Shown: positions 2-21,197 of the stretch, piece by piece
Layout of the letters: every line of letters starts with the position of its first letter
Numbering within the stretch: position 1 is the stretch's first letter
NCBI GenBank assembly: GCA_903836465.1
Contig: CAILRB010000023.1
Span: forward strand, 1-64,000
Origin: an uncultured Chlorobiaceae bacterium
Lineage (GTDB): Bacteria > Bacteroidota > Chlorobiia > Chlorobiales > Chlorobiaceae
Direction of reading: 5' to 3'
Length of the DNA: 64,000 nucleotides
The notes under the pieces: model-generated
Told to the model about the DNA's origin: nothing
Databases searched by the model: none
Seen by the model: the letters and a program-made list of their open reading frames with translations, nothing else
Translations under genes and position numbers: made by a program

Positions 2-331
2 GAAAAAATCACGCTGGTGATGGACAACTTGAACACTCATAAAGCCGGGTCGCTTTATGAAACCTTCAAGCCAAAGAAAGCAAGGGCGTTGCTGGACCGA
101 TTTGAATTTATTCATACACCGAAGCACGGCAGTTGGCTGAATATGGCAGAGATTGAGCTTAGGGTGCTATCAAATCAATGCCTGAACCGTCGAATTGATA
201 CAATGACTGAGGTGCGTCGTCAGGTTGGTGCTTGGGAGAAAGAACGCAATAACAAGGAAGCCGTTATCAACTGGCGCTTTACAACAGAAGATGCACGAAT
301 TAAATTGAAGAGGCTTTATCCGTCAGTTTAG
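2..331 (+). CDS. IS630-family transposase, C-terminal part (5' end outside window)
   Basis: Frame open from window start: [22 protein letters not shown]...[29 protein letters not shown], typical IS630 DDE C-terminus ([21 protein letters not shown]); TAG at 329-331. Confidence 0.85.
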
Positions 332-3300: not shown

Positions 3301-3502
3301 GCTTTGAGACTGAAGGAACATTTTGTCGCAATCCGCTATGCGTGCAATAAGATATAATCGAAAATGAGGGTGAATACAATGAGCGTCGCACTTTGTCGCA
3401 ATCCGCTATGCGTGCAATAAGATATAATCTTTCAAAAACATCTCGCAGAAATGTTGAGCTTCATAACGTCGCAATCCGCTATGCGTGCAATAAGATATAA
3501 TC
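382..3502 (-). CRISPR. CRISPR array, 35-bp repeat GTCGCAATCCGCTATGCGTGCAATAAGATATAATC (+ strand), about 43 repeats, spacers about 33-44 nt; probably transcribed on the minus strand
   Basis: Exact repeat copies counted by eye from 382-416 through 3468-3502. Minus-strand repeat GATTATATCTTATTGCACGCATAGCGGATTGCGAC ends in ATTGCGAC, resembling the ATTGAAA(C/G) 3' end that gives the 8-nt crRNA handle in many type I/III systems. Adjacent RT-cas1 lies on the high-coordinate side and is on the minus strand. Confidence 0.95.
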
Positions 3503-3754
3503 TGTACCTCTGGAAACCCGCACCAGTAAAGGGCTGCTGGCGCAAAAACCGGAGGATCGGTATTTTTCAGTAATGTCAAAGGACATTGAGCTGATTTTTA
3601 GTTGTTCAAGCGCCTGCATGTTATCAAATAATTGTGAGTTATGCAATATCCGAAGGATGCTAATTTATGGTTTTCCATATAACGTCATAATATATAAAGC
3701 GATAAGCGATATTTTCGAGCATTGGAAGCATTGCCGTAAATTATCATCCGGTTC
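3503..3754 (-). promoter_or_regulatory. Putative CRISPR leader between RT-cas1 and the array
   Basis: Non-coding, AT-rich interval between the last repeat and the RT-cas1 stop; leader side inferred from repeat orientation. Confidence 0.5.
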
Positions 3755-6001
3755 TTACCATTCTGTCCGGTATGGCTCATACAGGGTTGTTGTTCCGGCA
3801 AGTACTCCACTTATTTTGACCACCTGCGATTCAATGTGCCGACGAAGATTCATGCTTTTGCCGCTTTGTGGGTCGAGTGACTCTTCCCACATGCGCTGTT
3901 CAAACACTTCAAGAAACTTTTTCCGTGCTTCGTCTGTAAGAAAGCATCCTGCTTTGTCTTTACGATAATAAAAATCCTTATTTCGTAAAACACCTTTGTT
4001 GAGGGTATAGAGCGTCATGGAATCGATAATGGTTCTGAACTCTTCGACGAGGTCGTTGATCAGCGCAGGGTTCCCCTTGTCTTCAGCGTGCAGGAAGCCG
4101 ATATAGGGGTTCAGTCCTTTCATGCGCACAAGAGAAAAGACATTGTTGTGCAGCAGGGTATAACCGAAACTGAGCAGGCTGTTGACTGGATCGGTTGGGG
4201 GTCGGCGTACCCGGCGAAATGCATCGGTGTAGAAAGGAAGCTCTTTTTTGAAGAGCAGGCCAAAGAGTTCAAAATACAACGCAGCAGCTTTGCCTTCAAG
4301 GCCTCTGAGCGCATCCATGTTTTCGCAGGTTTTGGTATGTTCAGCAAGCGATGTCATGAGCGAGAGGGTGGTGTCGAATTTTTCTTTCAACTCACCGTTG
4401 CTTTCCCATGCCATAGCGCGGCGTTTCTGGATCATGGTGCGTGAGTTCCTGATTTTTGCCTGCACGATGCGACTGGCAATGTCGAAGGCAAAGGGTTCAT
4501 CGAGCGATCGGAGGTACTGGAAGCGCTCTACTGCCGAGTTGTCGTTTGTGGTTGCTTCAAGTCTGCCGAAGTAGCTGCCATGTTGCGAAATAAAGGTAAT
4601 GGGAATGTTGTTTTTCATGCAGTACTGCATGGCTGGTGTGGTGAGCGAGACGTTGCCAAGCACCAGAATCTGATCTACCCTGCGGACGATGATGTCGTTA
4701 ATCTGGCGCTCCTCTTTTTCGACGCTGAACCGTTCACCCTCTTTGCGCAGAATGCTCCCCTGCTCTTGGAGATAAAGTGTGTTGAGCAGAGGAGAGTAAA
4801 GTTTATTGAGGGCAGCCTGCTTCTCTTTTTGCCGCAGAATGTCCTCTTTTGCCGTTTTTTCAAGGAACTTGTCGACATCAACCTGCTGTTTTTCAAGGCT
4901 CTGCAGCAGCTTTTCACCAAACTCCGTCTGAAGCAGTGTCTCTTTGGTGACGGTTATGGTGCCGGAGTCGCCGTCGCCGTTTTGCAGCTCGTATGCATCA
5001 GTATCGGCTTCAGAGCTCTGTTTCGGCGCTTTGCGGAGTTTCAGTTTGCCGAGTTTGTCGTACCACTCTTCCGGGTGCATTTTGGTGGGCAGCACCAGTG
5101 AGCGGATAAAGAGGTAGCCAAGATATTTGAACCCTTCGGAGAAAGTGGTGATCCTGGTTTTTTCGTTGTTGAGGTGCAGCTTCAGTTCTGCAAGCGCACT
5201 TTCGGAAAGTTCAAGTGCGGCTTCAGCTTTTGGTTTTGTTTTGCAGAGGATGAGAAAATCGTCGGCGAACCGAACCAGTTTGAACCCCTCTTTTTCAATA
5301 CGCTCATCGAACTTGTCGAGATAGAGGTTTGCCAGCATCGGTGAAATCGGACACCCTTGCGGCAGGCCGATGGTGTTCTTAACTTTTGGGTTCTGGCCGT
5401 CAACAATTTCTGCGGTCAGCCATCGGCTTATCAGCTTGAGCAGCTCCTCATCGTCACAAAGTTCACGAAACCGCTGAAAGAGTAACGGGTGATCAACCGT
5501 ATCGAAAAAGCTGCTGATGTCGGCATCAACGACCCAGTGGTAGCCAAGGTTTCGCAGTCGTTCAATTTCACGGGCAGCAGTTATGCGAGATAAGCCCTGA
5601 CGGTAGGCAAAAGTATTGGCGCCAAGTTCCGATTCAACAAGTGGAGTCAGCACAATTGCGGCTGCGGTCTGGGCAACCCGGTCCATCACTGTTGGAATCA
5701 AAAGGGTGCGGAGTTTTCCGGTAGGTTTGAGCATAACCAGTTTCAGGAGCGGCTGCGGCTCGTAGGTGCCGGTCAAAAGCTGTCTGCCAAGAGCGGCAAG
5801 ATGCTCTTCAATGCGCCACGAATAGTCGGTAATCGACTGCTTGTCGTACCCGGCCATGCCGTCGTTGGAAACCACTTTGTTCCATGCCTGAAAAAGTGTA
5901 TCAGGCAAAGCCATCTGGTTGTAAAGCCACCCCATGTGTTGCTCCGGGTTATTGAGGTTGAAGAAATGGTTACGGAACTTTGATAAGAGCACAGACGGCA
6001 A
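3755..6001 (-). CDS. cas1: Reverse transcriptase-Cas1 fusion (RT-Cas1)
   Basis: 748 aa. N-terminal group-II-intron-like RT (VVDADISSFFDTVDH, GLPQGCPISPMLANLYLDKFD, LVRFADDFLIL). C-terminal Cas1 (GLEGKAAALYFELFG, GLNPYIGFLHAEDKGNPALINDLVEEFR) with Glu/His/Asp catalytic positions apparently present. Confidence 0.95.
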   Translation of the reverse strand: MPSVLLSKFRNHFFNLNNPEQHMGWLYNQMALPDTLFQAWNKVVSNDGMAGYDKQSITDYSWRIEEHLAALGRQLLTGTYEPQPLLKLVMLKPTGKLRTLLIPTVMDRVAQTAAAIVLTPLVESELGANTFAYRQGLSRITAAREIERLRNLGYHWVVDADISSFFDTVDHPLLFQRFRELCDDEELLKLISRWLTAEIVDGQNPKVKNTIGLPQGCPISPMLANLYLDKFDERIEKEGFKLVRFADDFLILCKTKPKAEAALELSESALAELKLHLNNEKTRITTFSEGFKYLGYLFIRSLVLPTKMHPEEWYDKLGKLKLRKAPKQSSEADTDAYELQNGDGDSGTITVTKETLLQTEFGEKLLQSLEKQQVDVDKFLEKTAKEDILRQKEKQAALNKLYSPLLNTLYLQEQGSILRKEGERFSVEKEERQINDIIVRRVDQILVLGNVSLTTPAMQYCMKNNIPITFISQHGSYFGRLEATTNDNSAVERFQYLRSLDEPFAFDIASRIVQAKIRNSRTMIQKRRAMAWESNGELKEKFDTTLSLMTSLAEHTKTCENMDALRGLEGKAAALYFELFGLLFKKELPFYTDAFRRVRRPPTDPVNSLLSFGYTLLHNNVFSLVRMKGLNPYIGFLHAEDKGNPALINDLVEEFRTIIDSMTLYTLNKGVLRNKDFYYRKDKAGCFLTDEARKKFLEVFEQRMWEESLDPQSGKSMNLRRHIESQVVKISGVLAGTTTLYEPYRTEW

Positions 6002-6072
6002 TCAACGGATGCGCAATTAGCTGGTAAATTACGTATTTTTCTTTTTTTCTTGCACGAGCAAATACAAACTAA

Positions 6073-6807
6073 ATGACGATGAAGGGTTCTATTGTACCGG
6101 ATTTATCAGAGCGGAGTCGCAGAGCGGTGGCTCATTATTGGCAAACAAGGAGAGCCCAGATAAAAAAGCAGCAAGAGATTGGCAAAACAGATCAAGGCCT
6201 TCGTAGTGCGGTTACTGGAGGCGCTCAAATGGATGGATTTATTGACTTGTTCACAGCACTCATTATCAATGCAGGTATTTCGGAACAGTATGTCTTTAGA
6301 AAAAAATCTGTTGAACTTCCGGGATATTTCAGGCCAACAAAAGAGTGGGATCTTCTGGTGGTAAGGGATCAAACGCTTATAGCGGCTATTGAAGCAAAAT
6401 CTCAAGTAGGGCCTTCTTTTGGAAATAATTTTAATAACCGGACTGAAGAGGCTATGGGCAGTGCTCTCGATTTGTGGACTGCTTATCGTGAACATGCTTA
6501 TCTTGATAGCCCTCAGCCCTTTCTCGGCTACTTCTTTATGTTGGAAGAGTGTGAGGCATCCAGTCGCTCGGTAAAGGTTAAAGAGCCTCATTTTAAGGTG
6601 TTTCAGGAGTTTGAAGGGGCATCGTACCAGCGTCGCTATGAACTTTTTTGTCGCAAACTTGTGCTTGAACGGCATTATACTGCTGCGGCTTTTATAACTT
6701 CTTCCGACAAAGAGGGGATTGACGGTAGTTTTCATGTACCGGCAGTTGATCTTTCTCTTGAACGGTTTGCTAAAATTCTTACGGGTCATATTGGCACATT
6801 TGTATGA
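6073..6807 (+). CDS. PaeR7I/XhoI-family type II restriction endonuclease
   Basis: GGAQMDGFIDLFTALI...KEWDLLVVRDQTLIAAIEAKSQVGPSFGNNFNNRTEEAMGSALDLWTAYRE; start overlap with a downstream methyltransferase gene. Confidence 0.8.
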   Translation: MTMKGSIVPDLSERSRRAVAHYWQTRRAQIKKQQEIGKTDQGLRSAVTGGAQMDGFIDLFTALIINAGISEQYVFRKKSVELPGYFRPTKEWDLLVVRDQTLIAAIEAKSQVGPSFGNNFNNRTEEAMGSALDLWTAYREHAYLDSPQPFLGYFFMLEECEASSRSVKVKEPHFKVFQEFEGASYQRRYELFCRKLVLERHYTAAAFITSSDKEGIDGSFHVPAVDLSLERFAKILTGHIGTFV

Positions 6808-7730
6808 ACAGCAGTCACAATAATACGTTGCACCGGCTCATTAACGGTGATGCCCGTGAACTTTCATTCCTTGAGGACGATTCGGTTCACCTTGTCATAA
6901 CCTCACCTCCTTACTGGAATCTGAAGCGGTACAATGAATCTCCTGATCAGCTTGGCCATATTGACGACTATGAGGCATTTCTTTTTGAACTTGAAAAAGT
7001 GTGGCATCATCTCTACAGGGTTCTTGTGCCGGGCGGGCGCCTTGTGTGTGTGGTCGGAGATGTTTGCGTTGCCCGGCGCGATTTTGGGCGGCATCTTGTT
7101 TTTCCCCTTCATGCAGATATTTGTGTTTCCTGCCGTCGAATTGGCTTTGATAACCTGAATCCGATTATCTGGCATAAGATAGCCAATGCCTCTTATGAGG
7201 TTACCAATGGCTCCAAGTTTCTTGGCAAGCCGTACGAACCAAATGCCATTATCAAAAATGATATGGAATTTATTCTTATGCAGCGAAAACCTGGAGGTTA
7301 TCGCAAACCAAGTGAACAACAGCGAGATGCCAGCAGGATCAGTAAAGATGATTTTAACCGATGGTTTCAGCAGATCTGGACGATTCCCGGTGCCTCAACT
7401 AAACAGCATCCCGCACCTTTTCCTCTTGAACTTGCCTTGCGGATTGTCAGAATGTTCTCGTTCGAAGGCGATACTGTACTTGATCCGTTCTGTGGTTCAG
7501 GGACTTCCATGATTGCCGCACTTAAAACTGGTCGCAACAGCATTGGTGTAGAAACTGATCCAGATTATTGCCGCATGGCTGCACGATATCTTAAAGCTGA
7601 AGCAAATGATTTTTTTTCTACAGCAAAGCTCGTTTTTGAAAAAGCGATGGTTCACGATGGTATCAGCATCAACGAAGATCAGGAGTTGTACAATATTTGT
7701 CCAGCAAAACAGAAGTTGGAGCAGGGCTGA
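6804..7730 (+). CDS. Site-specific DNA methyltransferase (TSPPY type)
   Basis: Motif IV TSPPYWNLKRY and motif I DPFCGSGTSMIAALKTGRNSIGVE; ATG overlaps the stop of the endonuclease gene. Confidence 0.9.
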   Translation: MNSSHNNTLHRLINGDARELSFLEDDSVHLVITSPPYWNLKRYNESPDQLGHIDDYEAFLFELEKVWHHLYRVLVPGGRLVCVVGDVCVARRDFGRHLVFPLHADICVSCRRIGFDNLNPIIWHKIANASYEVTNGSKFLGKPYEPNAIIKNDMEFILMQRKPGGYRKPSEQQRDASRISKDDFNRWFQQIWTIPGASTKQHPAPFPLELALRIVRMFSFEGDTVLDPFCGSGTSMIAALKTGRNSIGVETDPDYCRMAARYLKAEANDFFSTAKLVFEKAMVHDGISINEDQELYNICPAKQKLEQG

Positions 7731-7751
7731 TATGGCGCTATCCCTCAATGC

Positions 7752-8072
7752 TTATGCAGCGCTTTCGGTTGTGTTGAAAGGTGAGTGCTCCGGATGTTTC
7801 TCCCAATATTTTTTTGCAAAGTTGGTCTGGTCTCCATGACCTGCCAGAAGTCCTTTTACCGAAATGTCCTCATCAAGATCAGGCCAATGAATCCCTTCCC
7901 CGTCACCGGACAGTTCGTAATGGTTCAGCAACTCAGCCGATGCTCCAATCAATCGGGGGAACCAGGTATAGGGGATGGAGAGAATGCGCCCATCCTTGAG
8001 TTCCACATCAAATCGATGTTGACCAAATGTGAGATGCAATGCCTGAGGATTACTGTTCGCCGAAATGTTCAT
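7752..8072 (-). CDS. DUF2442 protein (possible partner of DUF4160 protein)
   Basis: FDVELKDGRILSIPYTWFPRLIGASAELLNHYELSGDGEGIHWPDLDEDISVKGLLAG; start chosen at MNISANSN. Confidence 0.75.
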   Translation of the reverse strand: MNISANSNPQALHLTFGQHRFDVELKDGRILSIPYTWFPRLIGASAELLNHYELSGDGEGIHWPDLDEDISVKGLLAGHGDQTNFAKKYWEKHPEHSPFNTTESAA

Positions 8073-8301
8073 TCCATACCTCCTCAATTCTTGACTTATG
8101 AGTTACAACCATTTTTTGAAGGAGTTGTAACTCTCTTGAGCCGAACCCTTTATTATAAGCAATGCTGCCATCAAGCCAAAATTTCGCTTTATTACTATCT
8201 TTTCGGATATGCACATGAACAGGTTCGTGTTGTCCGCCGCTTATTTCATTACTGAAAAAATGGAACTGGTATTGATCTGAAATGCCAGTGATTTTAGGCA
8301 T
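8050..8301 (-). CDS. DUF4160 protein
   Basis: FFSNEISGGQHEPVHVHIRKDSNKAKFWLDG...NKGFGSRELQLLQKMVVTHKSRIEEVWNEHFG; overlaps the following DUF2442 gene. Confidence 0.8.
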   Translation of the reverse strand: MPKITGISDQYQFHFFSNEISGGQHEPVHVHIRKDSNKAKFWLDGSIAYNKGFGSRELQLLQKMVVTHKSRIEEVWNEHFGEQ

Positions 8302-8432
8302 AACTTCATCTTTAATCTGTCGGAAGCAATTGTCTGAACAAACAACTATGCAATGAATATAATCTTGCTGTGAGTGATATAAAAGTATTTAATGTAAGGC
8401 GACTTATTGAGCGACGATGATAGCGAACTGCT

Positions 8433-8732
8433 TTGAACAAAAATATCATGCAATTCATTCTCGTGACCTACGATATCGAAAACGACCGGCGCAGGACAAA
8501 AATCCATAAACTCCTTGAAGGGTATGGTTCAGCGGTGCAGTTCAGCGTGTTTGAGTGTTTCATCTCCGAAGAGGATTATGCCCAGTTGCGTATGCGTCTT
8601 CAAAAACTTCTGGATCCGAAGCACCCCCTTGATTCGGTTCGCTATTACGTACTGTGCAGGAACTGTGTTGAGCGGGTCGATGTTGATGGCAATCGAGATT
8701 TTGAGATTCAGAGCCCGTTTATTATTTCATAA
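8433..8732 (+). CDS. cas2: CRISPR-associated endonuclease Cas2
   Basis: FILVTYDIENDRRRTKIHKLLEGYGSAVQFSVFECFISEEDYAQLR...RYYVLCRNCVERV; start possibly at the internal Met (MQFILVTYDI). Confidence 0.93.
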   Translation: MNKNIMQFILVTYDIENDRRRTKIHKLLEGYGSAVQFSVFECFISEEDYAQLRMRLQKLLDPKHPLDSVRYYVLCRNCVERVDVDGNRDFEIQSPFIIS

Positions 8733-8780
8733 AATACGTTATAACCAGCTCTCGTTCTGTAATAATTAGTTATAAAGTAG

Positions 8781-9632
8781 GTGATTATGGACATCAAGAA
8801 GGTTATGGGTTCTCAACGCATAAAACGACTCGCTGAAAGCGTTTTTGGTAGAAACAATATTAGCGTCCAGGCAGTGATTTATGCTGCATTGCTTTTGCTG
8901 GCCATTGCTTGGTTACCAGTTGGTATAGCTGATTTTATAGATGACCATTGGTTATGGTTTAGCTGGTTGCCCTGTTCTTACAAGCTGATTGTATCTTTAG
9001 CAATCTTTGTAATTTTTGCTTGGCAACTGAGCCGTTTAGGCGGTGATGATAATAAAGTCCAGGTGCAGAAAACATCGCCAAAAAAGGTACGGGCACTTGG
9101 CGTATTTCTCAGTACTTTGGGCCCAACAAATGAGATTGTAGAAGAGAAAATTCTTGAAATTCAAAATTCTTTAGCTGTCTTGCCTGATACATCAGCGATT
9201 CTGTCAGTGTTGACTGGCAAGAACTGGGAAATGCCTCTCAAAGCAATTGAGTATCATCAGGGACAGCTTGAAGCGCTTTACGTTTTTACATCGAAAGGCA
9301 ATCCGGGCTCATCCGAAACAATGGCACTTTTTGAAACAATTGTTAATGCTCTTTATCCGGACTTGAAGATCAGGGAGGTTGATGTGCATGGAATAGAATT
9401 TGAAGATGTTGAAGCGGTGTTTAACCAAGTTGAATCATTTTACGACATGGCCAAAAAAGACGGATTTCCGGAGCAGGAGATTCTTGTAGATGTTACTGGC
9501 GGACAAAAGCCTAACAGCATTGCTGCTTCAATAGCGACACTCATAACGGGCAGAAAGTTTCAGTATATCAGTACTGTCACAAAAGAAGTTCACGCATACG
9601 ATGTATGGTATATTGATCAAGTAAAAAGTTAG
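8781..9632 (+). CDS. Predicted membrane-anchored CARF-domain protein (two N-terminal TM helices + CARF-like domain)
   Basis: Hydrophobic segments VQAVIYAALLLLAIAWLPVGIADFI and YKLIVSLAIFVIFAWQL, then a Rossmann-like domain with ILVDVTGGQKPNSIAASIA (CARF-type D-x-TGGxK motif). Confidence 0.75.
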   Translation: MIMDIKKVMGSQRIKRLAESVFGRNNISVQAVIYAALLLLAIAWLPVGIADFIDDHWLWFSWLPCSYKLIVSLAIFVIFAWQLSRLGGDDNKVQVQKTSPKKVRALGVFLSTLGPTNEIVEEKILEIQNSLAVLPDTSAILSVLTGKNWEMPLKAIEYHQGQLEALYVFTSKGNPGSSETMALFETIVNALYPDLKIREVDVHGIEFEDVEAVFNQVESFYDMAKKDGFPEQEILVDVTGGQKPNSIAASIATLITGRKFQYISTVTKEVHAYDVWYIDQVKS

Positions 9633-9719
9633 TGCCTTGTCCTTGAAGAGAATACGTTTATTAGCTGATAAAAGCGTAATTACGAAAGATATTATTTCTT
9701 AAATATTATTAATAATTGA

Positions 9720-9962
9720 ATGACTTACCTCACCATATATTTTTACGATGTGCACAAAACTATAGCTGTACTTGCAAGAAAGGTTGCAAGTTTGTGCGCA
9801 ATTTTTAAGATACCCAAGCTTCCTCGTTATGGAGAACTTGAAAAAAAGAGATCCCGTCAAGAGGTGGTGCGGCAAATATCAAAGAGCAATCTCTCTTTAC
9901 AGCTCGGTTACTATGTGACGGTTGAGGATATTGAGCGGATGAAAAAAGAGCTGATCGTGTAA
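9720..9962 (+). CDS. Small hypothetical protein, possibly a gene remnant
   Basis: 80-aa ORF, no family recognised. Confidence 0.3.
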   Translation: MTYLTIYFYDVHKTIAVLARKVASLCAIFKIPKLPRYGELEKKRSRQEVVRQISKSNLSLQLGYYVTVEDIERMKKELIV

Positions 9963-10567
9963 GGTATTTTCTACTGTTGACTGAGTTATTGCAACAAGCC
10001 GTTGTCAAAGGCATTCTATGGAACATATCAAAATGAGAGAGCTGAACAAACATTAATTTCCTTGAGTACCCGAACACAAAGCGTTTTTGTGAGGATATCA
10101 AACGTTTGCAAGCTTCAGATACAAAGGAACCGGAACGTGATAAGCTGGTTATCCCCTTCATTCCAAAAGCAATAGAGCAGGTAAATTCTTCAGTTATAAA
10201 AATCAATGATTTTAGCCACTCTTGAAAAATCACTTGTATATAACTGAGAAGATACTTACACTATCTAAGTTACCATGCTTGTTGTTATGCACTCTTATGT
10301 TAATGCCACGTTTGTAGTTACGTCCGTTCAGACTAATTTGTTTTGGATTGAGAGTATATTCTCAATTTTCTTCAGTTTTTGTTATTTGGCCTTATAGTTT
10401 TTCGAGAGTTACTGAGCCTTACATCTTCCGGGTAGTGGGTCTTTCAATTATCGGTTTAGTGGTTTCTTGTAAACCGATTCTTGCCGAAGGTATTATCGAA
10501 AAGCACTGTTTTATGTGGCTTGAAAAGAATCTGTTAGAGAACGTACTAACGAAAGGAGTGTGCTGTT

Positions 10568-11746
10568 ATGAGTGTGCAACAAAGAAATTGCAAACAACTT
10601 CTTCTTCTCGTCGGTTCCAACCCCCTGCCTAACTTTTTGGCCGCTCTCATTTTGAAGCCCGAATCTATCTGTCTTTTCTACAGCCCTGAGACCGAAAGAG
10701 TAAAGAATTATCTTCTTGAAATCCTGAAAGCTAGGGTTGGGAAGGAGGGCTTGAGTGAAAAGTGTATTGCGAATGCGACAGACCCGTCAGTAGTTAGACA
10801 AGCCTTTAAATCGATTTCCAGAGATTCACATCTTCATTACACTGGCGGAACCAAGATCATGGCGGCTCATGCCCGAATGGCTTTTCGTGATGCTGGTGGG
10901 AAAGATGAACAAGCCTCTTACCTGGATGAGCGAAATGCAGTTTTGCGCTTCGACGATAACTATGAAATTCTTGTATCAAAGCAGCTCCTCGAATTGACTA
11001 TAGACGAGATTCTTGGGCTGCATGGGATCAAGAGACAACCTATTTTCATGGTGCAACACTCTCCTTCTGCCAATCAGGCACTTCCGTCGGATGTGGATGT
11101 GAAAAAGATGGTCGAGGCTGTTCTTGATAATCCATGTATAGCTAATCAGCTTTATAATATCACTCGTGATGAGGGGAAAAACCGTTCTTTTTCTGATGCC
11201 AAGAGTTGCCCAGTACTGATCGATAATTTTGTGTCAGGTTTGACTATTAAGCAACTTCCAGAAAATGGCTGGTCAAGAAATACTTTTGATAAGTGGTGTG
11301 AATTTCTGGAAAGTGGATGGCTTGAGAGATGGTGTGGTGGTCTTGTGCAGGATATTGCAGCTGAATCGGTGGTTTGTATCAATGTTAACTGTGTGCGGAA
11401 AGATGGTCGGCAATTTGAAATTGATGTGGCGCTTGTCTGCGGACATAGGCTTTATGTAATCTCATGTACTACTGATACCAAGATTAAACTTTGTAAATCA
11501 AAGTTGTTTGAAGTTGCCATGCGCGCACGCCAGTTGGGTGGTGATTTGGCTCGTTGCGCCCTTGTCTGTCTGCTCCACGGCAGCGATGAAAAAGGGTCTT
11601 TTGTCGATCAACTTCGAAGTGATGTAGCCGATATCTGGGATGCACAGAATACACCTCAAGTCTTTGGCCTTGACGATCTCAAGGAGTGGGCTGGTATCCA
11701 GGGGGAGCCGAATGTGGGCACCCTTCAACAATGGATTGAATCATAG
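10568..11746 (+). CDS. CARF-domain protein with DUF1887/Card1-Can2-like C-terminal PD-(D/E)xK-type domain
   Basis: N-terminal LHYTGGTKIMAAHARMAF (CARF motif); C-terminal FEIDVALVCGHRLYVISCTTDTKIKLCKSKLFEVAMRARQLGGDLARCALVCLL; RBS AAAGGAG upstream. Confidence 0.75.
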   Translation: MSVQQRNCKQLLLLVGSNPLPNFLAALILKPESICLFYSPETERVKNYLLEILKARVGKEGLSEKCIANATDPSVVRQAFKSISRDSHLHYTGGTKIMAAHARMAFRDAGGKDEQASYLDERNAVLRFDDNYEILVSKQLLELTIDEILGLHGIKRQPIFMVQHSPSANQALPSDVDVKKMVEAVLDNPCIANQLYNITRDEGKNRSFSDAKSCPVLIDNFVSGLTIKQLPENGWSRNTFDKWCEFLESGWLERWCGGLVQDIAAESVVCINVNCVRKDGRQFEIDVALVCGHRLYVISCTTDTKIKLCKSKLFEVAMRARQLGGDLARCALVCLLHGSDEKGSFVDQLRSDVADIWDAQNTPQVFGLDDLKEWAGIQGEPNVGTLQQWIES

Positions 11747-11758
11747 GAGGAACTTCTT

Positions 11759-13327
11759 ATGCCTGTTTTGACAGGGATTGACGTGTTAGGGGTGCAGCGG
11801 TTTGTCTTTGCTTCGAACCGGTTGAAGGATGTGGTGACGGGTTCGTTTCTTGTGCATTGGTGCACCGTGCCTGACGGACCACTGTCCTGTTCAGGCTCTA
11901 CGGGAAGCATCTTGTTTGCCGGTGGTGGGAACGCCATAGTCGAGTTTAATACCAATGAGGAAGCAAAAGTCTTTGCTGCCCTCTATACCCGCCTTCTTTA
12001 CGATGAAGTACCGGGGCTTGAAGTCGTTTTGGTGCACGAGATATTCGAACACGGAAATCTGGCTGTAGCACTCCAGAATCTTCAGATCAAACTTGCTCGT
12101 GCGAAAACGCAGCGTTTTCCATCAGTACCACTATCAGGTCTTTCAGTAACAGCTACCTGTATGGAAACAGGCCAGCCAGCCACACGATTTGATCGAGATG
12201 AAAAGAGCGTCAAAATTTCGCACAATATCGTTAGCCGTCGAGAAAAAAAGGGCAAAGCCATCGAATATTGGGAAAAATATTTGGAGGATAAGACGTGTTA
12301 TGATTTTCCGCTGGAACTGGATAATCTCGGCCGTGACAAGGGCGATACCAGTCTGATAGGAGTCGTTCATGTTGACGGAAACGGGGTTGGTAAAAAAATC
12401 ACGGCTTGGCTCTCAGCACAGTCTGATGATGAGACGGTGCGGCGAGAATACAGAGAGTGGTCTCAGGCCATTGATCGACTTGGGCAGGAAGCATTGTTCG
12501 CTGTTGTAGATCGTATTTTTCAGAGGGTGGAGAGAAGCGATGATGGGAACCCGCCAAAGGTAACCGGAATACCGAAGGGGTTGTGTTTTGACTTGAAGGC
12601 TGAAACAGGCAGTAAATGGATGCTTCCAATACGACCTATATTGCTCGGAGGAGACGACCTGACATTCGTTTGCGACGGTCGCATCGCTTTGGATTTGGCA
12701 GAAACAGCACTTAGCGTATTTGAACATAGCAATATCCCACATCTCGGAAATATATCCGCAAGTGCAGGTATAGCTATCGTTCGCGTTCATGCGCCCTTTG
12801 CAAGGGCTTACGAATTGGCTGAAAAACTGTGCCGGTCCGCAAAGGACAAACTGAAAAAAGAAGATGATCAAGGTTGTGCACTGGATTGGCACATCGGCAT
12901 TGCGCGACCGGGAGAGTCGGTAACAACTATTCGGAATAAGCAATATCTGGCAAATGGTTATCAACTAACTTGCAGACCTTATCTTCTTGGCTCAGAACAA
13001 GATGATAACAAGGTAACTTGGCGTTGGCTGTCCCGAACCCTTTTGGATGGCAAAGTGTTCGGCTTAAGAGGCGAAAGCTGGTCTGAACGGCGAAACAAGG
13101 TCAAGGATTTTGCCGAATTGGTGCGTGAAGGGCCGGATGTTGTTCTGTCAGCCCTTGACGCATGGCGTGTGGTGGAAAACAAGCTTCAACTGCCACAACC
13201 TATTGGAAACAGTGGTTTTATCGCGACTCGAACACCTTTACTGGATGCAGCCGAGATCGTTGATTTGCACCTTGTACTGGAACATATTGATCATCAGCAA
13301 GCAAAGGAATCGGAGGTTAAGCAATGA
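11759..13327 (+). CDS. cas10: Cas10-like protein without an HD domain, with GGDD cyclase motif
   Basis: Palm motifs GVVHVDGNGVGKKI and PILLGGDDLTFVCDG; 522 aa, N-terminus starts directly at the first palm (LTGIDVLGVQRFVF); co-operonic with RAMPs. Confidence 0.9.
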   Translation: MPVLTGIDVLGVQRFVFASNRLKDVVTGSFLVHWCTVPDGPLSCSGSTGSILFAGGGNAIVEFNTNEEAKVFAALYTRLLYDEVPGLEVVLVHEIFEHGNLAVALQNLQIKLARAKTQRFPSVPLSGLSVTATCMETGQPATRFDRDEKSVKISHNIVSRREKKGKAIEYWEKYLEDKTCYDFPLELDNLGRDKGDTSLIGVVHVDGNGVGKKITAWLSAQSDDETVRREYREWSQAIDRLGQEALFAVVDRIFQRVERSDDGNPPKVTGIPKGLCFDLKAETGSKWMLPIRPILLGGDDLTFVCDGRIALDLAETALSVFEHSNIPHLGNISASAGIAIVRVHAPFARAYELAEKLCRSAKDKLKKEDDQGCALDWHIGIARPGESVTTIRNKQYLANGYQLTCRPYLLGSEQDDNKVTWRWLSRTLLDGKVFGLRGESWSERRNKVKDFAELVREGPDVVLSALDAWRVVENKLQLPQPIGNSGFIATRTPLLDAAEIVDLHLVLEHIDHQQAKESEVKQ

Positions 13328-13959
13328 ATCAGAGCCAGTTTATTCAGATTGAGCTTCTTTCCGATGCAGCTTTCAGCCGAGGCGAAGGCACTGCTGGTGT
13401 CGTGGATATTGAGGTAGAGCACGACGAATTGGGGTTACCGTTTCTGGGAGGTAAAACGCTTCGTGGATTGCTTCACGATACATGGCTTTCCATGCAATAC
13501 TGCTTTCCGGAATTGAATTTATTGGCGGATCGAATCTTCGGATCTGATGCTGATTTCGATGAGAACTCTATCTTGCGGATCGGAGATGCTGTAGTGGATA
13601 GTGAAACTCGCAATTGGATTGAGGCGGCTGTATCTCGGCAAAGCCATCCTATATGCCCAAAAATGGTATTGGAGGCACTTACTGATATCCGTCAACAGAC
13701 TTCAGAAGAGAGAAGTACAGGAGCACCAGCCGAAACTACTTTACGGTCGATTCGTGTGATAATTCGAGGTTTGAAGTTGCAGTCACCTCTCTATTGGCTG
13801 GCTGAGCCAACTGATGAAGAACTCCGTTGCTTGTCATTGGCACTTCTGGCTACCCGGTATGCAGGGCTTGGTCGTAATCGTGGCCGGGGGCATATCAGCT
13901 TGACTCTCAATGGAAATAGAGCAAAAACAATTCAGTTGGTCAACGGAGTTGAAATATGA
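13324..13959 (+). CDS. RAMP-superfamily CRISPR protein (small, Cas7-like)
   Basis: FSRGEGTAGVVDIEVEHDELGLPFLGGKTLRGLLHDTW and glycine-rich AGLGRNRGRGHISL; ATGA overlap with cas10. Confidence 0.85.
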   Translation: MNQSQFIQIELLSDAAFSRGEGTAGVVDIEVEHDELGLPFLGGKTLRGLLHDTWLSMQYCFPELNLLADRIFGSDADFDENSILRIGDAVVDSETRNWIEAAVSRQSHPICPKMVLEALTDIRQQTSEERSTGAPAETTLRSIRVIIRGLKLQSPLYWLAEPTDEELRCLSLALLATRYAGLGRNRGRGHISLTLNGNRAKTIQLVNGVEI

Positions 13960-15659
13960 ATCGATACTGCTACCTGCCCTATACCCTCAGGCTGAATTCT
14001 CCTGTTATCATCACAGCTCCCGGAGGTGATCCGAACAGCTCCTCAACTCTCTCGTACATCCCCGGAACGGCTATGCGGGGGGCTGTAGCAAAAGCATTAG
14101 GTGATCCGGGTGTTGACAGCTTAAGACAACATGAATTCCATGAGCTTGTCCTTGGCGGAATAGTTCGTTATTTGAATGCCTATCCACTTGTTGACAAGCG
14201 GCGAGCATTGCCAACCCCTGTCAGCTTCAGGCTGCGTAAGGATAGGCCAGAAAATACACGAGATATAATAGACCTTTCTGCTGATGGTTGGCCGAAGGAA
14301 GAATTAATTTCTATTGGCGAGGAGTTTCTCACCGTAGGAGCTGCTCGTCCTGCATTGTTCCATCCGAAAATCAGTTCCCGTATTCACCATCAACGCGACC
14401 GTGAGAAAGGACGAGCTTGGAAAAGCAAGAATGGTACGCTTGAAAAAGCACTTGAGGAGGCCACTGAGATCAGTGAGAAAGGGCAAGAATGGAAAAATAA
14501 AAATGACAATACCCATGGTGCTATTTTCACCTTTGAATCTCTGGATTCCAATCAAACGTTTGAAGGATTGATCCAGTTGTGCTCTGGGCAAGCAGAAAAA
14601 TGGGATCAAATCGAGAGTCGTATCAAGGTGTTGCTGGGAGGGTCATTACTTGTGGGGAGATCCCGGCGGGCGGGCTATGGCGGGATGGCAACCATTGAAT
14701 GGGGGGCCAGACAAAGCCATGAGACAGGAGGAGGCGGAACAGATGGTTTACGACCGTTGAACTGGAATATCGAACCAGGTAAGCAATTTCGCTTACTTCT
14801 TTCTTCTCCCTGTATTGCGAGAAATCAAACGACGGGTCAGCCAGATCCTGCCGCATTGGTGGAAATAATCACGAGCCGGTTCAGTAATCGGGCGGAAGTG
14901 ATACGAAAAGTATGGACCTTCGAAGCTGTCGGAGGATTTAACCGAAAATGGCGATTGGAATTACCACAAACTTTGGCTGTTTCTGCCGGGTCGGTGTTTG
15001 TGCTCAAAGCAAATCAAGCAATTACTCTCAACGAACTGCACGAGATTGAGCATGAGGGTTTTGGAGAGCGAAAAGGTGAGGGGTATGGGCGTCTGCTGTT
15101 TCTTGATAAACCTTCAAATATCTCTCTGAATATATTTACTGAACCACCATCCAAGACAGCAGTTATCGGTCAACCCTCTGAGATTGTCACCAAAATTGAA
15201 TCAAGAATAGTTCAGGCTCAACTTGCAAGAAGGATAGAGGAGAAGGCCGCTGAATTAGCCGGGTCTGCCAAAAAACCGCTGCCGACAAACAGCCTGATCG
15301 GACGGTTGAGAACACCGTTTCGCAGCGCAACTCATGAAGCTATCAGTACCATGAAGTTGTGGCTGTCTAACAACGAAGCTCATCAATTGAAGCGGTCAGC
15401 CATGGATCAGTTGGAGGGCTGCAAAATCAATGACGGAAAAGATATGCGTTCATGGATACTGGCGGCGATGAACAGAGATGTGATACTCAAATGGCTTGAT
15501 TTAGACGTTCTGGCTCAACGATTTTACGTGGTTTCCAAAGAATCAGTAAATAGTGGGGTAGAAAAAAAATTCGAAGAGCTTTCTGTCAGATTGATCGATG
15601 CCGTACTGGCCAACCTCACCATCCGGAACAAATTGCAGGAGGAAAATCATGCTCAATAA
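13956..15659 (+). CDS. csx10: Csx10-like RAMP protein (type III-D)
   Basis: LPYTLRLNSPVIITAPGGDPNSSSTLSYIPGTAMRGAVAKAL, LLVGRSRRAGYGGM, GFGERKGEGYGRLLFL. Confidence 0.8.
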   Translation: MNRYCYLPYTLRLNSPVIITAPGGDPNSSSTLSYIPGTAMRGAVAKALGDPGVDSLRQHEFHELVLGGIVRYLNAYPLVDKRRALPTPVSFRLRKDRPENTRDIIDLSADGWPKEELISIGEEFLTVGAARPALFHPKISSRIHHQRDREKGRAWKSKNGTLEKALEEATEISEKGQEWKNKNDNTHGAIFTFESLDSNQTFEGLIQLCSGQAEKWDQIESRIKVLLGGSLLVGRSRRAGYGGMATIEWGARQSHETGGGGTDGLRPLNWNIEPGKQFRLLLSSPCIARNQTTGQPDPAALVEIITSRFSNRAEVIRKVWTFEAVGGFNRKWRLELPQTLAVSAGSVFVLKANQAITLNELHEIEHEGFGERKGEGYGRLLFLDKPSNISLNIFTEPPSKTAVIGQPSEIVTKIESRIVQAQLARRIEEKAAELAGSAKKPLPTNSLIGRLRTPFRSATHEAISTMKLWLSNNEAHQLKRSAMDQLEGCKINDGKDMRSWILAAMNRDVILKWLDLDVLAQRFYVVSKESVNSGVEKKFEELSVRLIDAVLANLTIRNKLQEENHAQ

Positions 15660-17118
15660 CCTGGCAAGCTCCAGAAATGCTGGCGGCATACGGCCCATGG
15701 TTGCCCGCTGGGTCGTTACCGGAGAGATGAGGCTGGAAACGGCAGCTCACTTTGGTGGCGAAGGCGAGAGCTTGGCTGACATGACGCTTTTGCGTGATTC
15801 TTTGGATGGTATAACACCACTTTTTCCCGGTACTTCGCTGGCAGGTGCTCTACGCAGTCATTTAGCCGATGTGCTGGGCGGATATTTTTCTAATGAGGAT
15901 AAAGCTGTGGCCACGTTATTCGGGATGTCCCGGAAAAATGATGCTGATGGTGCACAAAGCCCATTGATCGTCTTTGATTCTTCAGGTGAGTTGCCAGATG
16001 GTCTGAAAGTGGAAATCCGTGATGGTGTTGCCATAAATTCCGCTACCGGGACGGCAGATCCTCACAAGAAGTTCGATATTGAGGTACTTCCGACAGGGAC
16101 AATTTTTCCTGTCAGAGTGGAACTTGTTGTTGAAAAGAGTGAGGAGGAGCCTAAACTTGTTACCCTTCTGGTTAAAGCTCTCGACGGACTGACCAGCGGG
16201 GAGATTTCACTCGGCATGAGGCGTTCCCGAGGGCTTGGAGCTGTTGGTGCCCGAAACTGGAAAACCAGGAGGTTTGAGTTGAACACCAGTGATGGCTGGA
16301 TAAACTGGCTGACATCGGATCATGTAAATCCCTTAGCCCATGAGACTCCGTTCAATTCAGCCCGTGAAGCCATTGAATCAGCATGTCCGGCATTGCGTTT
16401 GGAAAAGACTCCTGACGACAAGAGGTCTCGATTGGTTATTGATGTTGATTTACAACTTGACGGAGATTTGCTGGTTAGAAGCCCAGGATGCGATCCTACG
16501 GCACCGGATGCTGTCCATCTGCACAGTGCAGGAAAGCCCGTCCTGCCTGGAACGAGTTTGGCTGGCGCACTGAGGGCCCAAGCACTGAGAATTGCACGTT
16601 GTGTCCGTAGTTCTCAGAAAGACGGTGATGAATGGATCAACCGGCTTTTCGGCCCGCATATCGAAAACAAGCAGAATTCAAGCTCACCTCGACCAAGTGC
16701 ATCCAAACTGCGTGTTTCGGAAAACATCATCGGTGATAGCAAACCTCGCCGACAGACACGTATAGCCATTGACCGTTTTACAGGAGGCGTTGTATCGGGA
16801 GCACTTTTCGATGAGGAGGTTCAAGCTGGAGGTAAAATCAACGTGCGACTTGAACTGCGCCAACCGACCGAAGCTGAAACCGGCCTGATTCTCCTATTAC
16901 TCAAAGACCTTCTTTCTGGAGAGATTCCCGTTGGTGGATCGGCTTCGGTAGGCCGGGGCGTTTTCAAGGGGACGGCTAAATTGTTGCTGGAGAATGGAAA
17001 ACAATACGATATCAGCCCTGATTTGCAGGTAAAAAAAGAGGTTATGTATGACTTCAATGCTTTTATCACAAAATTTCGTGATGCAGCACAGTTAAAAGCC
17101 GGGGAGGTGATCTCATGA
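15649..17118 (+). CDS. Double RAMP (Cas7-Cas7-like) fusion protein
   Basis: Two internally similar RAMP units: PLFPGTSLAGALRSHLADVL ... SLGMRRSRGLGAVG and PVLPGTSLAGALRAQALRIA ... IPVGGSASVGRGVFKG. Start ATG 15649 preceded by AGGAGG (ORF track extends to 15598). Confidence 0.88.
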   Translation: MLNNLASSRNAGGIRPMVARWVVTGEMRLETAAHFGGEGESLADMTLLRDSLDGITPLFPGTSLAGALRSHLADVLGGYFSNEDKAVATLFGMSRKNDADGAQSPLIVFDSSGELPDGLKVEIRDGVAINSATGTADPHKKFDIEVLPTGTIFPVRVELVVEKSEEEPKLVTLLVKALDGLTSGEISLGMRRSRGLGAVGARNWKTRRFELNTSDGWINWLTSDHVNPLAHETPFNSAREAIESACPALRLEKTPDDKRSRLVIDVDLQLDGDLLVRSPGCDPTAPDAVHLHSAGKPVLPGTSLAGALRAQALRIARCVRSSQKDGDEWINRLFGPHIENKQNSSSPRPSASKLRVSENIIGDSKPRRQTRIAIDRFTGGVVSGALFDEEVQAGGKINVRLELRQPTEAETGLILLLLKDLLSGEIPVGGSASVGRGVFKGTAKLLLENGKQYDISPDLQVKKEVMYDFNAFITKFRDAAQLKAGEVIS

Positions 17119-17711
17119 AAGAGCCTAAAGGATGCACAATCGAACGGCTCGATAATGATGCTTGCAAAGCTGTTCTGAATTGGGTAAGGAAGGAGGGAGA
17201 ATCTTGTCAAGAAGGCACTTTTCCTTGGTTGTTGGCACATTGCCACGATGGCGTGACCTGGGGGCGATTCGATATCGTAACCAAGGATTGGCTTCTCTCT
17301 TCAAAGCCCTTTCCAACCCTTTGCCCGCAAGTGTCAGAATCCAATCTTCTTGAAATCCGACTGTTCGGTTCGGAACGGGAAATCCTTATCTGGCAAACTG
17401 AGACTGGATTTTCTGGCAGATGCCTGATTGATAAAAAAGAACAGGACAACAACGATCCCTGCCGTCCTGATAATGAAACCCGAATTTTGCTGGGGGATCG
17501 GGTTCTGGAGACTTCAAAAGGGGGTTTTACCTGCGTTGGCACTGCCAGAGGTCTCAAGCAGGCTGTACCGTTAGAATGTACGGATAATGATTTTGCAGAA
17601 GGCCGTTGGCCGCTTCGGGTAACGATGCGGCATTATTTTGAGCAAGATGATGAAACTGGTGCAGTCCGTGTGGCTGCAAGCCGCCTTGTAACTATTTTCA
17701 AGGAGAATTGA
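17115..17711 (+). CDS. csx19: Csx19/TIGR03984-like type III-D CRISPR protein
   Basis: FPWLLAHCHDGVTWGRFD...KPFPTLCPQVSESNLLEIRLFGSEREILIWQTETGFSGR...GFTCVGTARGLKQAVPLEC; position in the III-D operon. Confidence 0.7.
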   Translation: MKEPKGCTIERLDNDACKAVLNWVRKEGESCQEGTFPWLLAHCHDGVTWGRFDIVTKDWLLSSKPFPTLCPQVSESNLLEIRLFGSEREILIWQTETGFSGRCLIDKKEQDNNDPCRPDNETRILLGDRVLETSKGGFTCVGTARGLKQAVPLECTDNDFAEGRWPLRVTMRHYFEQDDETGAVRVAASRLVTIFKEN

Positions 17712-17714
17712 CAG

Positions 17715-20162
17715 ATGGCACTTGAACGAGGAAAATTGGTGCTCAGCAAGAAAGGAAAATCCTTGGTTGAAATAGAAGGAAAGCTTTTCAATCCAGCGCA
17801 AGGGGAGCTTTCCCAATCCATTTTGGAGCGGTTACCACAGTTGAACGGAGTAGAAGTGGAATTTGAACGAGAAGGTGGTCTGCCAAAAAAGATTCGTGAA
17901 GCTGGAGGTGTATTTGTTCCTCCTCATGCTGGTGTAACTATCAGAAAAAATGATCCTCGACATAATGAAGGTCGCAAAGAAATGCATAGCCGAACTCATG
18001 GTAGTACAATAGATATGGTACCGGATTTTCATAACCCATACAATTTTATTCCTGCTCCCCCAAGACAAACAGATGACCCTGATCTTGGCGATCATGTCCC
18101 TGTTAGCCAAGATAAATTTTACCCGGATAGAATTACAGGTCGTATCCGTGTTGGAATGGAAGCAATTACACCGCTTCTCGTTCCCGATCCAAGTAATTGC
18201 AGTGAAGATAACGGGCACAAGACATTTGAATTGCTGCGAGGCGATGACGAAAAACCATTGATTCCTTCATCAAGTATTCGGGGGCTGCTTCGTAGTGCAT
18301 TTGAAGCTGTGACAAACTCGCGGTTAGGTCGCTTTCCCAAAAAAGAGCATGGTAAGAGACTTGCTTATCGAATGGATGTTAAGGATGGACTTAAATTAAT
18401 TCCGGCTCGGATTGAGAATGGACTAATTCATTTGTTAACCGGCACCTCAGAGATTGGGCAGAATGGTGTTCCAAGGGGGTCTCAGTATGCTGCATGGCTT
18501 CCAAGGTACAGTGGACGTGATAAGGTCACGTTCACAGAATATACAGTAAAATATCCTGACGGCTCACTTCCTCAGCATGGAGACGAGGTAGATTGCCAAG
18601 TGGAGTTGACTACACATAGCCGTAATAAATTCAAATATTGGAAAATTGTTAAGGTCGAAAAAATAGGAAAAGCACATCAAATATATCGAAATAACTTAGC
18701 AGAAGGGATACGACAAATCCGTGGTTGGGTTTGTATCACTAATCCTAACATTAATAGCAAGCATGATGAACGGGTATTTTTCTTTTCTCCAACTGAATCC
18801 GGTTTACAGAAACAGACGTCATTCCCACTTAAAGAAGTGCATCGGCAGATGTGGCGTGAGCTTATCGAAAACTACCAAGATATTCATCAGGATGAGTTAA
18901 AAAAAAGAGATGATAACAAGGAGGCATATTACCAATACTTCGATCATGACCCAGGGCGTACGGCATGGTCAAGGCATGTTTATTCAAAAGCCGACAAAGA
19001 ATTGCAGGAAGGGACAATCTGCTATGTGAGATTATCAAGAGACAAACAAGACGTGGAAGCTCTTTTTCCAGTCATGATTGCCAGAGAGCTTTATTCTTCT
19101 TCTCCTTGGGAGTTGTTGCATTCTTCGCTTAGACCGGCGTCAAAGATATCTGAACTGTCACCAGCAGATCGTGTTTTTGGTTGGGTGCAGGCTGATTCTG
19201 AAGTTGAACAAGGGGAATCAAACTCTCAAACAGCAGTTCGGGGTTTGTTGCGTGTCGGACGGGTGAGATGCGAGTCATCTGTGGAGGATGCCATCAAAGT
19301 ATTTGCAGGGGATGGATTGCCATTGGCTATTCTTGCAGCTCCCAAGCCGCAGCAGGGTTGTTTTTATGTGGCTAATAAATCGAAAAATGGTGAGGCGCAA
19401 GGAAACGGGTTATCTAAAGTTGAGGCAGGATACTCTCTTGAAAAGGGGCTTCGTGGTCGCAAAGTTTACCCGCACCATCATCATAACAGCATATCAGAAA
19501 GTCATTGGGAAAATCCAATGACAGATCGAACACAAGAGAAGCAAGGGCCTTGGCAGGAATATCGGCGTCCTGATAGTGAAAAATTGCGGGATGAGCAAAA
19601 CCGTTCGATGCTTGGTTGGGTAAAGCCAGGCTGTCGCTTTGTTTTTGATATCCATGTGACAAATCTTTCTAAAGTGGAGTTAGGGGCATTATTATACTTT
19701 CTGCAACTCCCGAAAAATCATTTTCATCGTTTTGGCGGAGGCAAACCGCTCGGTTTCGGAAGCGTGCGGTTGTCGGTTACTGACTGCGAACTAATGACCG
19801 AGGATGCCTTGCGAGAAAGGTATTGTTCATGGGATTCTATAAGTAAGCTTGATAATATCTCGGAAGATGCGGTTGCCGTTTTCAGGGATGCTGTTCACCG
19901 CGCTTACGGCCAAAATCATCAAGGGAGTTTTGAGCAAATTCCGTTTATAAAGGCGTTTTTACGTGCTTGTACAGGTTTCGATGACCATTTGCCCATCCAT
20001 TACCCTCGAACCACCGAAAGTGGTCAACCCGGGCCACCCAATCCTAAAGGTGAGTCTTTCAAATGGTTCGTAGCAAATGAAAAAAGTGCAGCACGTTGTG
20101 CTCTTCACGATCTTGCAACTGATAACGGCTTGCCTACCTTGAAGGATCGTCAACCTCATTGA
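17715..20162 (+). CDS. TIGR03986-like large RAMP protein
   Basis: PLIPSSSIRGLLRSAFEAVTNSRLGRFPKKEHGKRLAYRM...HFHRFGGGKPLGFGSVRLSV. Confidence 0.8.
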   Translation: MALERGKLVLSKKGKSLVEIEGKLFNPAQGELSQSILERLPQLNGVEVEFEREGGLPKKIREAGGVFVPPHAGVTIRKNDPRHNEGRKEMHSRTHGSTIDMVPDFHNPYNFIPAPPRQTDDPDLGDHVPVSQDKFYPDRITGRIRVGMEAITPLLVPDPSNCSEDNGHKTFELLRGDDEKPLIPSSSIRGLLRSAFEAVTNSRLGRFPKKEHGKRLAYRMDVKDGLKLIPARIENGLIHLLTGTSEIGQNGVPRGSQYAAWLPRYSGRDKVTFTEYTVKYPDGSLPQHGDEVDCQVELTTHSRNKFKYWKIVKVEKIGKAHQIYRNNLAEGIRQIRGWVCITNPNINSKHDERVFFFSPTESGLQKQTSFPLKEVHRQMWRELIENYQDIHQDELKKRDDNKEAYYQYFDHDPGRTAWSRHVYSKADKELQEGTICYVRLSRDKQDVEALFPVMIARELYSSSPWELLHSSLRPASKISELSPADRVFGWVQADSEVEQGESNSQTAVRGLLRVGRVRCESSVEDAIKVFAGDGLPLAILAAPKPQQGCFYVANKSKNGEAQGNGLSKVEAGYSLEKGLRGRKVYPHHHHNSISESHWENPMTDRTQEKQGPWQEYRRPDSEKLRDEQNRSMLGWVKPGCRFVFDIHVTNLSKVELGALLYFLQLPKNHFHRFGGGKPLGFGSVRLSVTDCELMTEDALRERYCSWDSISKLDNISEDAVAVFRDAVHRAYGQNHQGSFEQIPFIKAFLRACTGFDDHLPIHYPRTTESGQPGPPNPKGESFKWFVANEKSAARCALHDLATDNGLPTLKDRQPH

Positions 20163-20345
20163 ATGTGCTGTTGGAATACGATCTGTTAATGAATCTTGAT
20201 GACTGTTTTGGAACCGCTTTGAAACCGTATTACGCAATTTTTTATTGAAACAGGAGTAAGTGAATTGTTGGACGCAGATGGACAATACCTCTTCAGGAAG
20301 CGCCAATTTCACAGTGTACAAAATCTTATAATTGCACTCCAAAAT

Positions 20346-21197
20346 ATGCGCATCACCCTCGAACTATCCCACCGCAAACGGACAGTGACGCTGCCAATAA
20401 ACAACAGCCACCTCATCTCCTCCCTCATCTACAACATCGTTGATAAAAGCTCAAGCGACTACGCCGAGCGGTTGCATGAGCAAGGATACAGGTTGCAGAA
20501 CAGGGCTTTCAAGCTGTTCACTTTTTCACCGCTTTATCCCGGAAACCACCATAAGTGGGTGATGCACGAGAACGGGACAATGAGCACTGCCGAGGCATTA
20601 CTGCATGTTACGGTCTCTTCTCCAAAGAATGAGTTTATTGAGCATCTGGTGATTGGCTTGTTGCAGGAGCCGTTGGTCTTGGTCGGGAATCAACGGTTCA
20701 AGGTTGAGACGGTTCGCAAGCTTGATTCACCTGACTTGAGTGACAACATGCCGTTTATCATGCTTTCACCTTTGGTCTGTACTACAAAGCGTGAGCTTGA
20801 GCAGTATCCTCAGTATCTTTTTCCGGGTGATTCGGAGTTTGAACGGGTTTTGCTTGAAAATCTTTTGCGGAAATATCAGGTGCTGCATGGGCGTGAGTTT
20901 GCCTGCACAAGTGAGCAATTCAGCTTTTCGATTGATCATGCTTATGTCGAGCGGATGAATGGTAAAATTCAGAAGTTGATCACCCTGAAGGAGGGGAGAA
21001 GTGATGAAACAAAAATCAAGGGTACGCTTGCACCGTTCAGGCTTCAAGCTCCTCGTGAACTGATTGAGGTTGGGTATGAGTGCGGGTTTGGGGAAAAGAA
21101 TTCGCAGGGTTTTGGGATGGTGAAGCTTGATACTACTCATCCCACTGACGATGTAAAGGATGGGCATCCGGCAAATAGAGAGATATCTGATCTGTGA
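20346..21197 (+). CDS. cas6: CRISPR repeat endoribonuclease Cas6
   Basis: MRITLELSHRKRTVTLPINNSHLISSLIYNIVDKSSSDYAERLHEQGY...GYECGFGEKNSQGFGMVKL (glycine-rich loop); ATG 20346 preferred over the upstream TTG at 20265. Confidence 0.9.
   Translation: MRITLELSHRKRTVTLPINNSHLISSLIYNIVDKSSSDYAERLHEQGYRLQNRAFKLFTFSPLYPGNHHKWVMHENGTMSTAEALLHVTVSSPKNEFIEHLVIGLLQEPLVLVGNQRFKVETVRKLDSPDLSDNMPFIMLSPLVCTTKRELEQYPQYLFPGDSEFERVLLENLLRKYQVLHGREFACTSEQFSFSIDHAYVERMNGKIQKLITLKEGRSDETKIKGTLAPFRLQAPRELIEVGYECGFGEKNSQGFGMVKLDTTHPTDDVKDGHPANREISDL

Follow-up and report, generated by a model that had tools for sequence, protein, structure and literature searches.

Can a type III CRISPR locus keep its memory half while its effector half is exchanged, and might such a locus record invaders from RNA? 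Both questions are raised by a locus of an uncultured Chlorobiaceae (Chlorobium-like) bacterium in which a reverse transcriptase–Cas1 fusion (RT-Cas1) adjoins a type III-D effector set. The stretch analysed, here called the window, comprises positions 1–64,000 of contig CAILRB010000023.1, position 1 of the window being the first base of the contig. Genes were identified from a list of open reading frames (ORFs) and by profile searches using PADLOC, NCBIfam and Pfam; their coordinates are given in Table 1. The family set used for comparison consisted of 87 Chlorobiaceae genomes including that of the window (86 others). By gene content this is an intact RT-Cas1 locus with a type III-D effector, and probably a complete CRISPR immune system that works; recording invaders from RNA and raising a chemical alarm are in principle within its reach. 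We consider it likely that the type III-D locus is complete, with a resident frame of RT-Cas1, Cas2, Cas6 and repeat, that it works as proposed below and that its effector block replaced an earlier type III block. The sequence itself establishes what genes are present and their subtype, that the catalytic motifs are intact and RT-Cas1 is under selection, the antisense bias of the spacers and a foreign block between resident flanks.

The RT-Cas1 protein matched the Pfam families RVT_1 (3.6e-37) and Cas_Cas1 (2.9e-88), both well above the cut-off. Its RT is group-II-intron-like and lies N-terminal to Cas1. Alignment to the solved Cas6-RT-Cas1 structure (PDB entry 7kft) showed that the RFADD motif and the Cas1 Glu/His/Asp triad are retained and that both catalytic sites are present, as an earlier reading made without database searches (the sequence-only reading) had claimed; the separate cas2 and cas6 genes that it described were likewise found by profile search. 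RT-Cas1 is near full length in 17 of the 86 other family genomes (65–99% identity), and the FADD and GFLH motifs are conserved in 16/16 relatives checked. The ratio of nonsynonymous to synonymous substitution rates (dN/dS) against 16 relatives, where computable, was 0.04–0.16 for the whole gene and 0.01–0.15 for the RT domain. Both halves of the protein are under strong purifying selection, across effector subtypes; the low ratios indicate that RT-Cas1 is in use, not what its substrate is. A second Cas1 was not found in the genome.

Assignment to type III-D was backed by two hidden Markov model (HMM) libraries, PADLOC and NCBIfam. The PADLOC matches were Cas10d (2.2e-117), Cas5_IIId/Csx10 (5.7e-108) and Cas7_IIId (5.7e-61 and 5.3e-125). 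In NCBIfam, the Csx10 match of the Cas5 gene reached 95 bits, under the curated cut-off of 177, Csx19 reached 90.3 bits, above its curated cut-off of 35, and the TIGR03986 match (1.1e-104) was above the curated cut-off. A Csx10-type Cas5, Csx19 and a III-D-type Cas10, by which the subtype is recognized, are thus all present. The III-D-like set of the sequence-only reading (Cas10 with GGDD, Csx10-like, Csx19-like and TIGR03986-like proteins) was recovered element by element in PADLOC/NCBIfam and, since both libraries support III-D, the proposed subtype came through its HMM check.

No HD domain was matched in Cas10 in the profile search of the window proteins. In a published survey 97% of III-D loci had a Cas10 without this domain, and the III-D Cas10 is considered to work chiefly through cyclic oligoadenylate (cOA; PMC11229360). 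A structural comparison was made with the III-Dv complex of Synechocystis (PDB entry 8s9t; PMC11026444), which has a GGDD Cas10, Cas7-2x, Cas7-insertion and Csx19 in common with the window; Cas7-2x matched 8s9t_D at 1.1e-26, and aspartates were aligned to the catalytic residues D26, D33 and D246 reported for that complex (PMC11026444). Synechocystis has a single Cas7-Cas5-Cas11 fusion, whereas cas7 and csx10 are separate genes in the window.

Two CARF proteins had been noted in the sequence-only reading, and both were confirmed. The CARF nuclease (PADLOC 1.4e-75; Can2 8q3y 1.5e-25; Pfam Card1 25.8 bits, slightly below the cut-off of 26.4) fits the Can2 structures over its two domains, and its E-x-D motif is retained. 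In common with the Can2/Card1 nucleases (PDB entries 7bdv and 8q3y) it combines CARF with PD-D/ExK and its catalytic E and D are aligned, but its identity to them is low. The CARF membrane protein (CARF-TM) carries a DxTGGxK CARF motif common to three relatives. It showed no match to Cam1 by sequence; the best PDB fold match of its predicted model was Cam1 (8t66; E 1.1e-05), at a modest mean predicted local distance difference test score (pLDDT) of 65.7. Where the window has the CARF-TM gene, the III-B loci of two relatives (L024, 7486–8145; L029, 6979–7647) have Csx23-like membrane effectors.

The array was oriented by the repeat end (ATTGAAAC-like), which is common to relatives, and by the conserved Chlorobiaceae leader between RT-cas1 and the array. 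A DDE transposase fragment lies at window positions 17–331, at the start of the contig, and adjoins the leader-distal end of the array. In the proposed mechanism, RT-Cas1 with Cas2 would add spacers at the leader adjoining RT-cas1, RNA being in principle a possible source. Cas6 would cleave the array transcript to give CRISPR RNA (crRNA) carrying the ATTGCGAC tag, and the Cas10–Csx10–Csx19–Cas7 complex would bind complementary phage mRNA and, judging from the aligned residues, cut it at the Cas7 aspartates. The HD-less Cas10 would produce cOA, most likely cyclic tetra-adenylate (cA4), which would in turn switch on the Can2-type nuclease and the Cam1-like membrane protein. From the families concerned we infer the cOA synthesis, the cA4 messenger, the Can2 and Cam1-like responses, the cleavage of target RNA and the RNA source of spacers.

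Loci of this kind are already known. RT-Cas1 is known with type III-A to III-D (PMC6753606), Cam1 is known to co-occur in loci with other cA4-type effectors and the joint presence of CARF effectors is common (PMC11229360), and RNA spacer acquisition has been reported for the III-D-associated RT-Cas1 of Vibrio vulnificus (Gonzalez-Delgado 2019, as cited in PMC9048733). The Vibrio system resembles the window in joining an RT-Cas1 fusion to a III-D effector, but its host belongs to another phylum. Of the combination proposed in the sequence-only reading (RT-Cas1, a GGDD Cas10, and membrane and nuclease CARF effectors), the coupling is borne out by the anatomy of the locus, although systems of this type had been described before.

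A tblastn search of all window proteins against the relatives divided the locus into recurring and non-recurring parts. RT-cas1, cas2, the leader, the repeat, cas6, an 80-residue ORF and sometimes the CARF-TM gene recur in Chlorobiaceae. The relatives lack the block that runs from Can2 to the Cas7-insertion gene, and no close relative of the window Cas10 was found among the 86 other family genomes. In the relative locus L121 the flanks are 93% (cas2), 82% (80-residue ORF) and 91% (cas6) identical to those of the window at the DNA level, and the space between cas2 and cas6 is taken up by a III-A block that includes a gene for CARF-HEPN. The III-A and III-B loci L121, L037, L024 and L029 match the window in carrying orthologues of RT-cas1, of cas2 or of both, together with the leader, the repeat, cas6 and in some cases CARF-TM, but their effector blocks and ancillary genes (CARF-HEPN, Csx23) are unlike those of the window. 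RT-Cas1 stands with a III-B-type Cas10 in L024, L026, L029 and L031 and with a III-A-type Cas10 in L028, L030, L033, L034 and L037. The block is foreign to the family and its flanks are resident; the simplest reading is an apparent replacement, in place, of an earlier type III effector block by the block from Can2 to Cas7-insertion. L022 is the closest RT-Cas1 relative, but the junction is not visible there because the contig runs out in sequence that does not match and has broken reading frames.

The order Can2–cas10–cas7–csx10–cas7-2x–csx19–TIGR03986 is identical on the conjugative plasmid pANACY.01 of Anabaena cylindrica (22–36% identity), where the cassette runs likewise from a DUF1887 CARF gene to TIGR03986. 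No RT-Cas1 lies within the 27.6 kb stretch of the plasmid that was read, and its repeat differs from that of the window. The idea that, within the family, type III-D as such occurs in the window alone was rejected because L130, L036 and L127 hold other III-D lineages; only the cassette of the window is unique. A second III-D-like Chlorobiaceae lineage, with a 478-residue Cas10, is present in L036 (2935–4368) and L127 (3679–5112), and the L036 Cas10, next to a truncated RT-Cas1, has GGDE instead of GGDD.

For the spacer analysis 442 unique RT-linked spacers were pooled; spacers of the same array are not independent, and the p-values are therefore optimistic. The complement of the crRNA was purine-rich in 288 cases against 132 that were purine-poor (p=2e-14), the pattern that crRNAs antisense to mRNA should give. 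Control arrays were taken from the same family, the I-C-like and I-B-like arrays being named by the length and form of the repeat and not by typed effectors. These type I controls were unbiased (196:193 and 135:133, respectively), and type III arrays without an RT were as biased as those with one (48:23, p=0.004; RT versus no RT, Fisher p=0.89). The bias is thus a property of how type III systems function and was rejected as proof of RNA capture; counter-selection has been given as the explanation of such a bias (Artamonova 2020, as cited in PMC9048733). A loosely defined Shine-Dalgarno–ATG motif was found on the target-sense strand of 8/42 window spacers, and the strict motif was distributed 19:0 between the target-sense and the other strand in the 442 RT-linked spacers. 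The excess on either strand over type I arrays was not significant (19/442 versus 17/694, p=0.12), and the idea that the spacers sample mRNA 5' ends was rejected, which leaves the strand bias as the one signal that holds. In the window, spacer length shifts about 24 spacers from the leader, from 37.0 to 40.5 nt (standard deviation 1.8 versus 3.2). This change point (permutation p=0.0025, in a post hoc test) is the only clear one among 12 arrays and is treated as a lead only.

Several observations weigh against the account given above. No donor of the cassette was found, the best Cas10 identity being about 33%, and the repeat of the window ends differently from the one in the Anabaena array, so that resident crRNAs are only assumed to serve the new complex. 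The Cam1-like assignment rests on the model with a mean pLDDT of 65.7, the bias of RT-less type III arrays equals that of RT-linked ones, and no protospacer was found in phages, plasmids and family genomes, or in viral contigs (searched with six spacer cores), a frequent outcome for RT-linked arrays (PMC5513706). We regard it as very unlikely that the swapped III-D complex makes no use of the resident array, taking its crRNAs from elsewhere or being inactive, with the array a relic of the former effector. The foreign origin of the block, the different repeat beside its cyanobacterial counterpart and a shift in spacer length that could mark a change of regime would fit such a relic, but every gene has an open reading frame, cas6 lies next to the block, 43/43 repeats are identical and the genome yielded no second Cas1. 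That the III-D block is ancestral in the lineage of the window and was lost elsewhere is suggested by the other III-D lineages beside a decayed (L130) and a truncated (L036) RT-Cas1. These lineages share only about 31% identity over part of Cas10, however, the L130 Cas10 scores higher with PDLC02058 than with PDLC02057 and the window Cas10 the reverse, and the flanks are 91–93% identical in DNA to those of a locus with III-A; ancestry appears quite improbable. Replacement between resident flanks remains the preferred reading. Its more specific form, in which a plasmid-type Can2/III-D cassette took over the RT-Cas1 locus, the new complex reads the old memory and the spacer-length change dates the exchange, is tentative, and we hold it possible rather than probable.

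Whether spacers come from RNA has to be weighed separately. Adaptation may proceed from DNA only, with the RT kept for another step such as fill-in or priming on DNA ends. The identical strand bias with and without an RT and the non-significant motif excess are consistent with this, as is a report that CRISPR-associated RTs prime on DNA and RNA alike (PMC10415136). RNA acquisition by related RT-Cas1 proteins (PMC11014452) and the V. vulnificus III-D case cited above argue the other way, and in most comparisons the RT domain is constrained as much as Cas1 or more. Taken together, we rate adaptation from DNA only as unlikely.

Table 1. Features of the RT-Cas1/type III-D locus (window positions).
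Feature	Position	Strand	Remarks
CRISPR array	382..3502	-	43 identical 35-nt repeats (GATTATATCTTATTGCACGCATAGCGGATTGCGAC), 42 unique spacers of 32-46 nt; Rfam CRISPR-DR38
Leader	3503..3754	-	96% identity to L022, 73-82% to other RT-Cas1 loci
RT-Cas1 fusion, 748 residues	3755..6001	-	RFADD and Cas1 E/H/D present
XhoI-type restriction endonuclease	6073..6807	+	Nested in adaptation module, between RT-cas1 and cas2
N6/N4 DNA methyltransferase	6804..7730	+	Partner of XhoI-type endonuclease; profile search
DUF2442 (7752-8087) and DUF4160 (8050-8301) pair	7752..8301	-	Profile search
Cas2	8433..8732	+	Profile search
CARF8 membrane protein (CARF-TM), Cam1-like	8781..9632	+	Predicted N-terminal helices and CARF
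80-residue ORF	9720..9962	+	Conserved at Chlorobiaceae type III loci
Left junction of effector cassette	9963..10567		G+C content 0.37, no convincing ORF
Can2/Card1-type CARF-PD-D/ExK nuclease	10568..11746	+	Profile and structure alignment
Cas10 (III-D), 522 residues	11759..13327	+	GGDD palm, no HD domain
Cas7 (III-D)	13324..13959	+	Asp aligned to catalytic D26 of III-Dv complex (weak, E 0.4)
Csx10 (Cas5)	13956..15659	+	C-terminal extension putatively Cas11-like
Cas7-2x, double Cas7	15598..17118 (likely start 15649)	+	Aspartates align with catalytic D33 and D246
Csx19	17115..17711	+	PADLOC/NCBIfam
TIGR03986 RAMP, Cas7-insertion equivalent	17715..20162	+	PADLOC/NCBIfam
Cas6	20265..21197 (likely start 20346)	+	Resident Chlorobiaceae gene, separate from RT-Cas1

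The sequence-only reading did not mention the array, which lies just outside its coordinates, the XhoI-type restriction–modification pair, the DUF2442/DUF4160 pair or the conserved 80-residue ORF. The restriction–modification pair is nested in the same way in two relatives, L024 and L029, and stands beside RT-cas1 in L025; in L041 its methyltransferase was seen alone, and in L022 (2847–2956) only short methyltransferase remnants were found, from which the pair appears to come and go. The pair may feed the adaptation module or simply travel within it. The DUF2442/DUF4160 pair, on the strand opposite cas2, has a toxin–antitoxin-like layout, and DUF2442 is conserved in several relatives. The 80-residue ORF had no match in Pfam or PADLOC and recurs in Chlorobiaceae, with 54–91% identity, at seven further loci of the RT-Cas1 or type III kind.

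What the locus adds to those already published is a clean effector exchange and a control for spacer bias. The antisense bias, equal in RT-less type III and missing from type I, is a caution against inferring RNA-derived spacers from natural bias. With its effector half apparently replaced wholesale and its memory half retained, the locus is a useful natural experiment. In relatives the same RT-Cas1 frame accompanies effectors of type III-A, of type III-B and of several III-D kinds, so that the independence of adaptation and interference modules can be asked about directly, and effector swaps on one array would show whether they alter crRNA loading, immunity and spacer choice.

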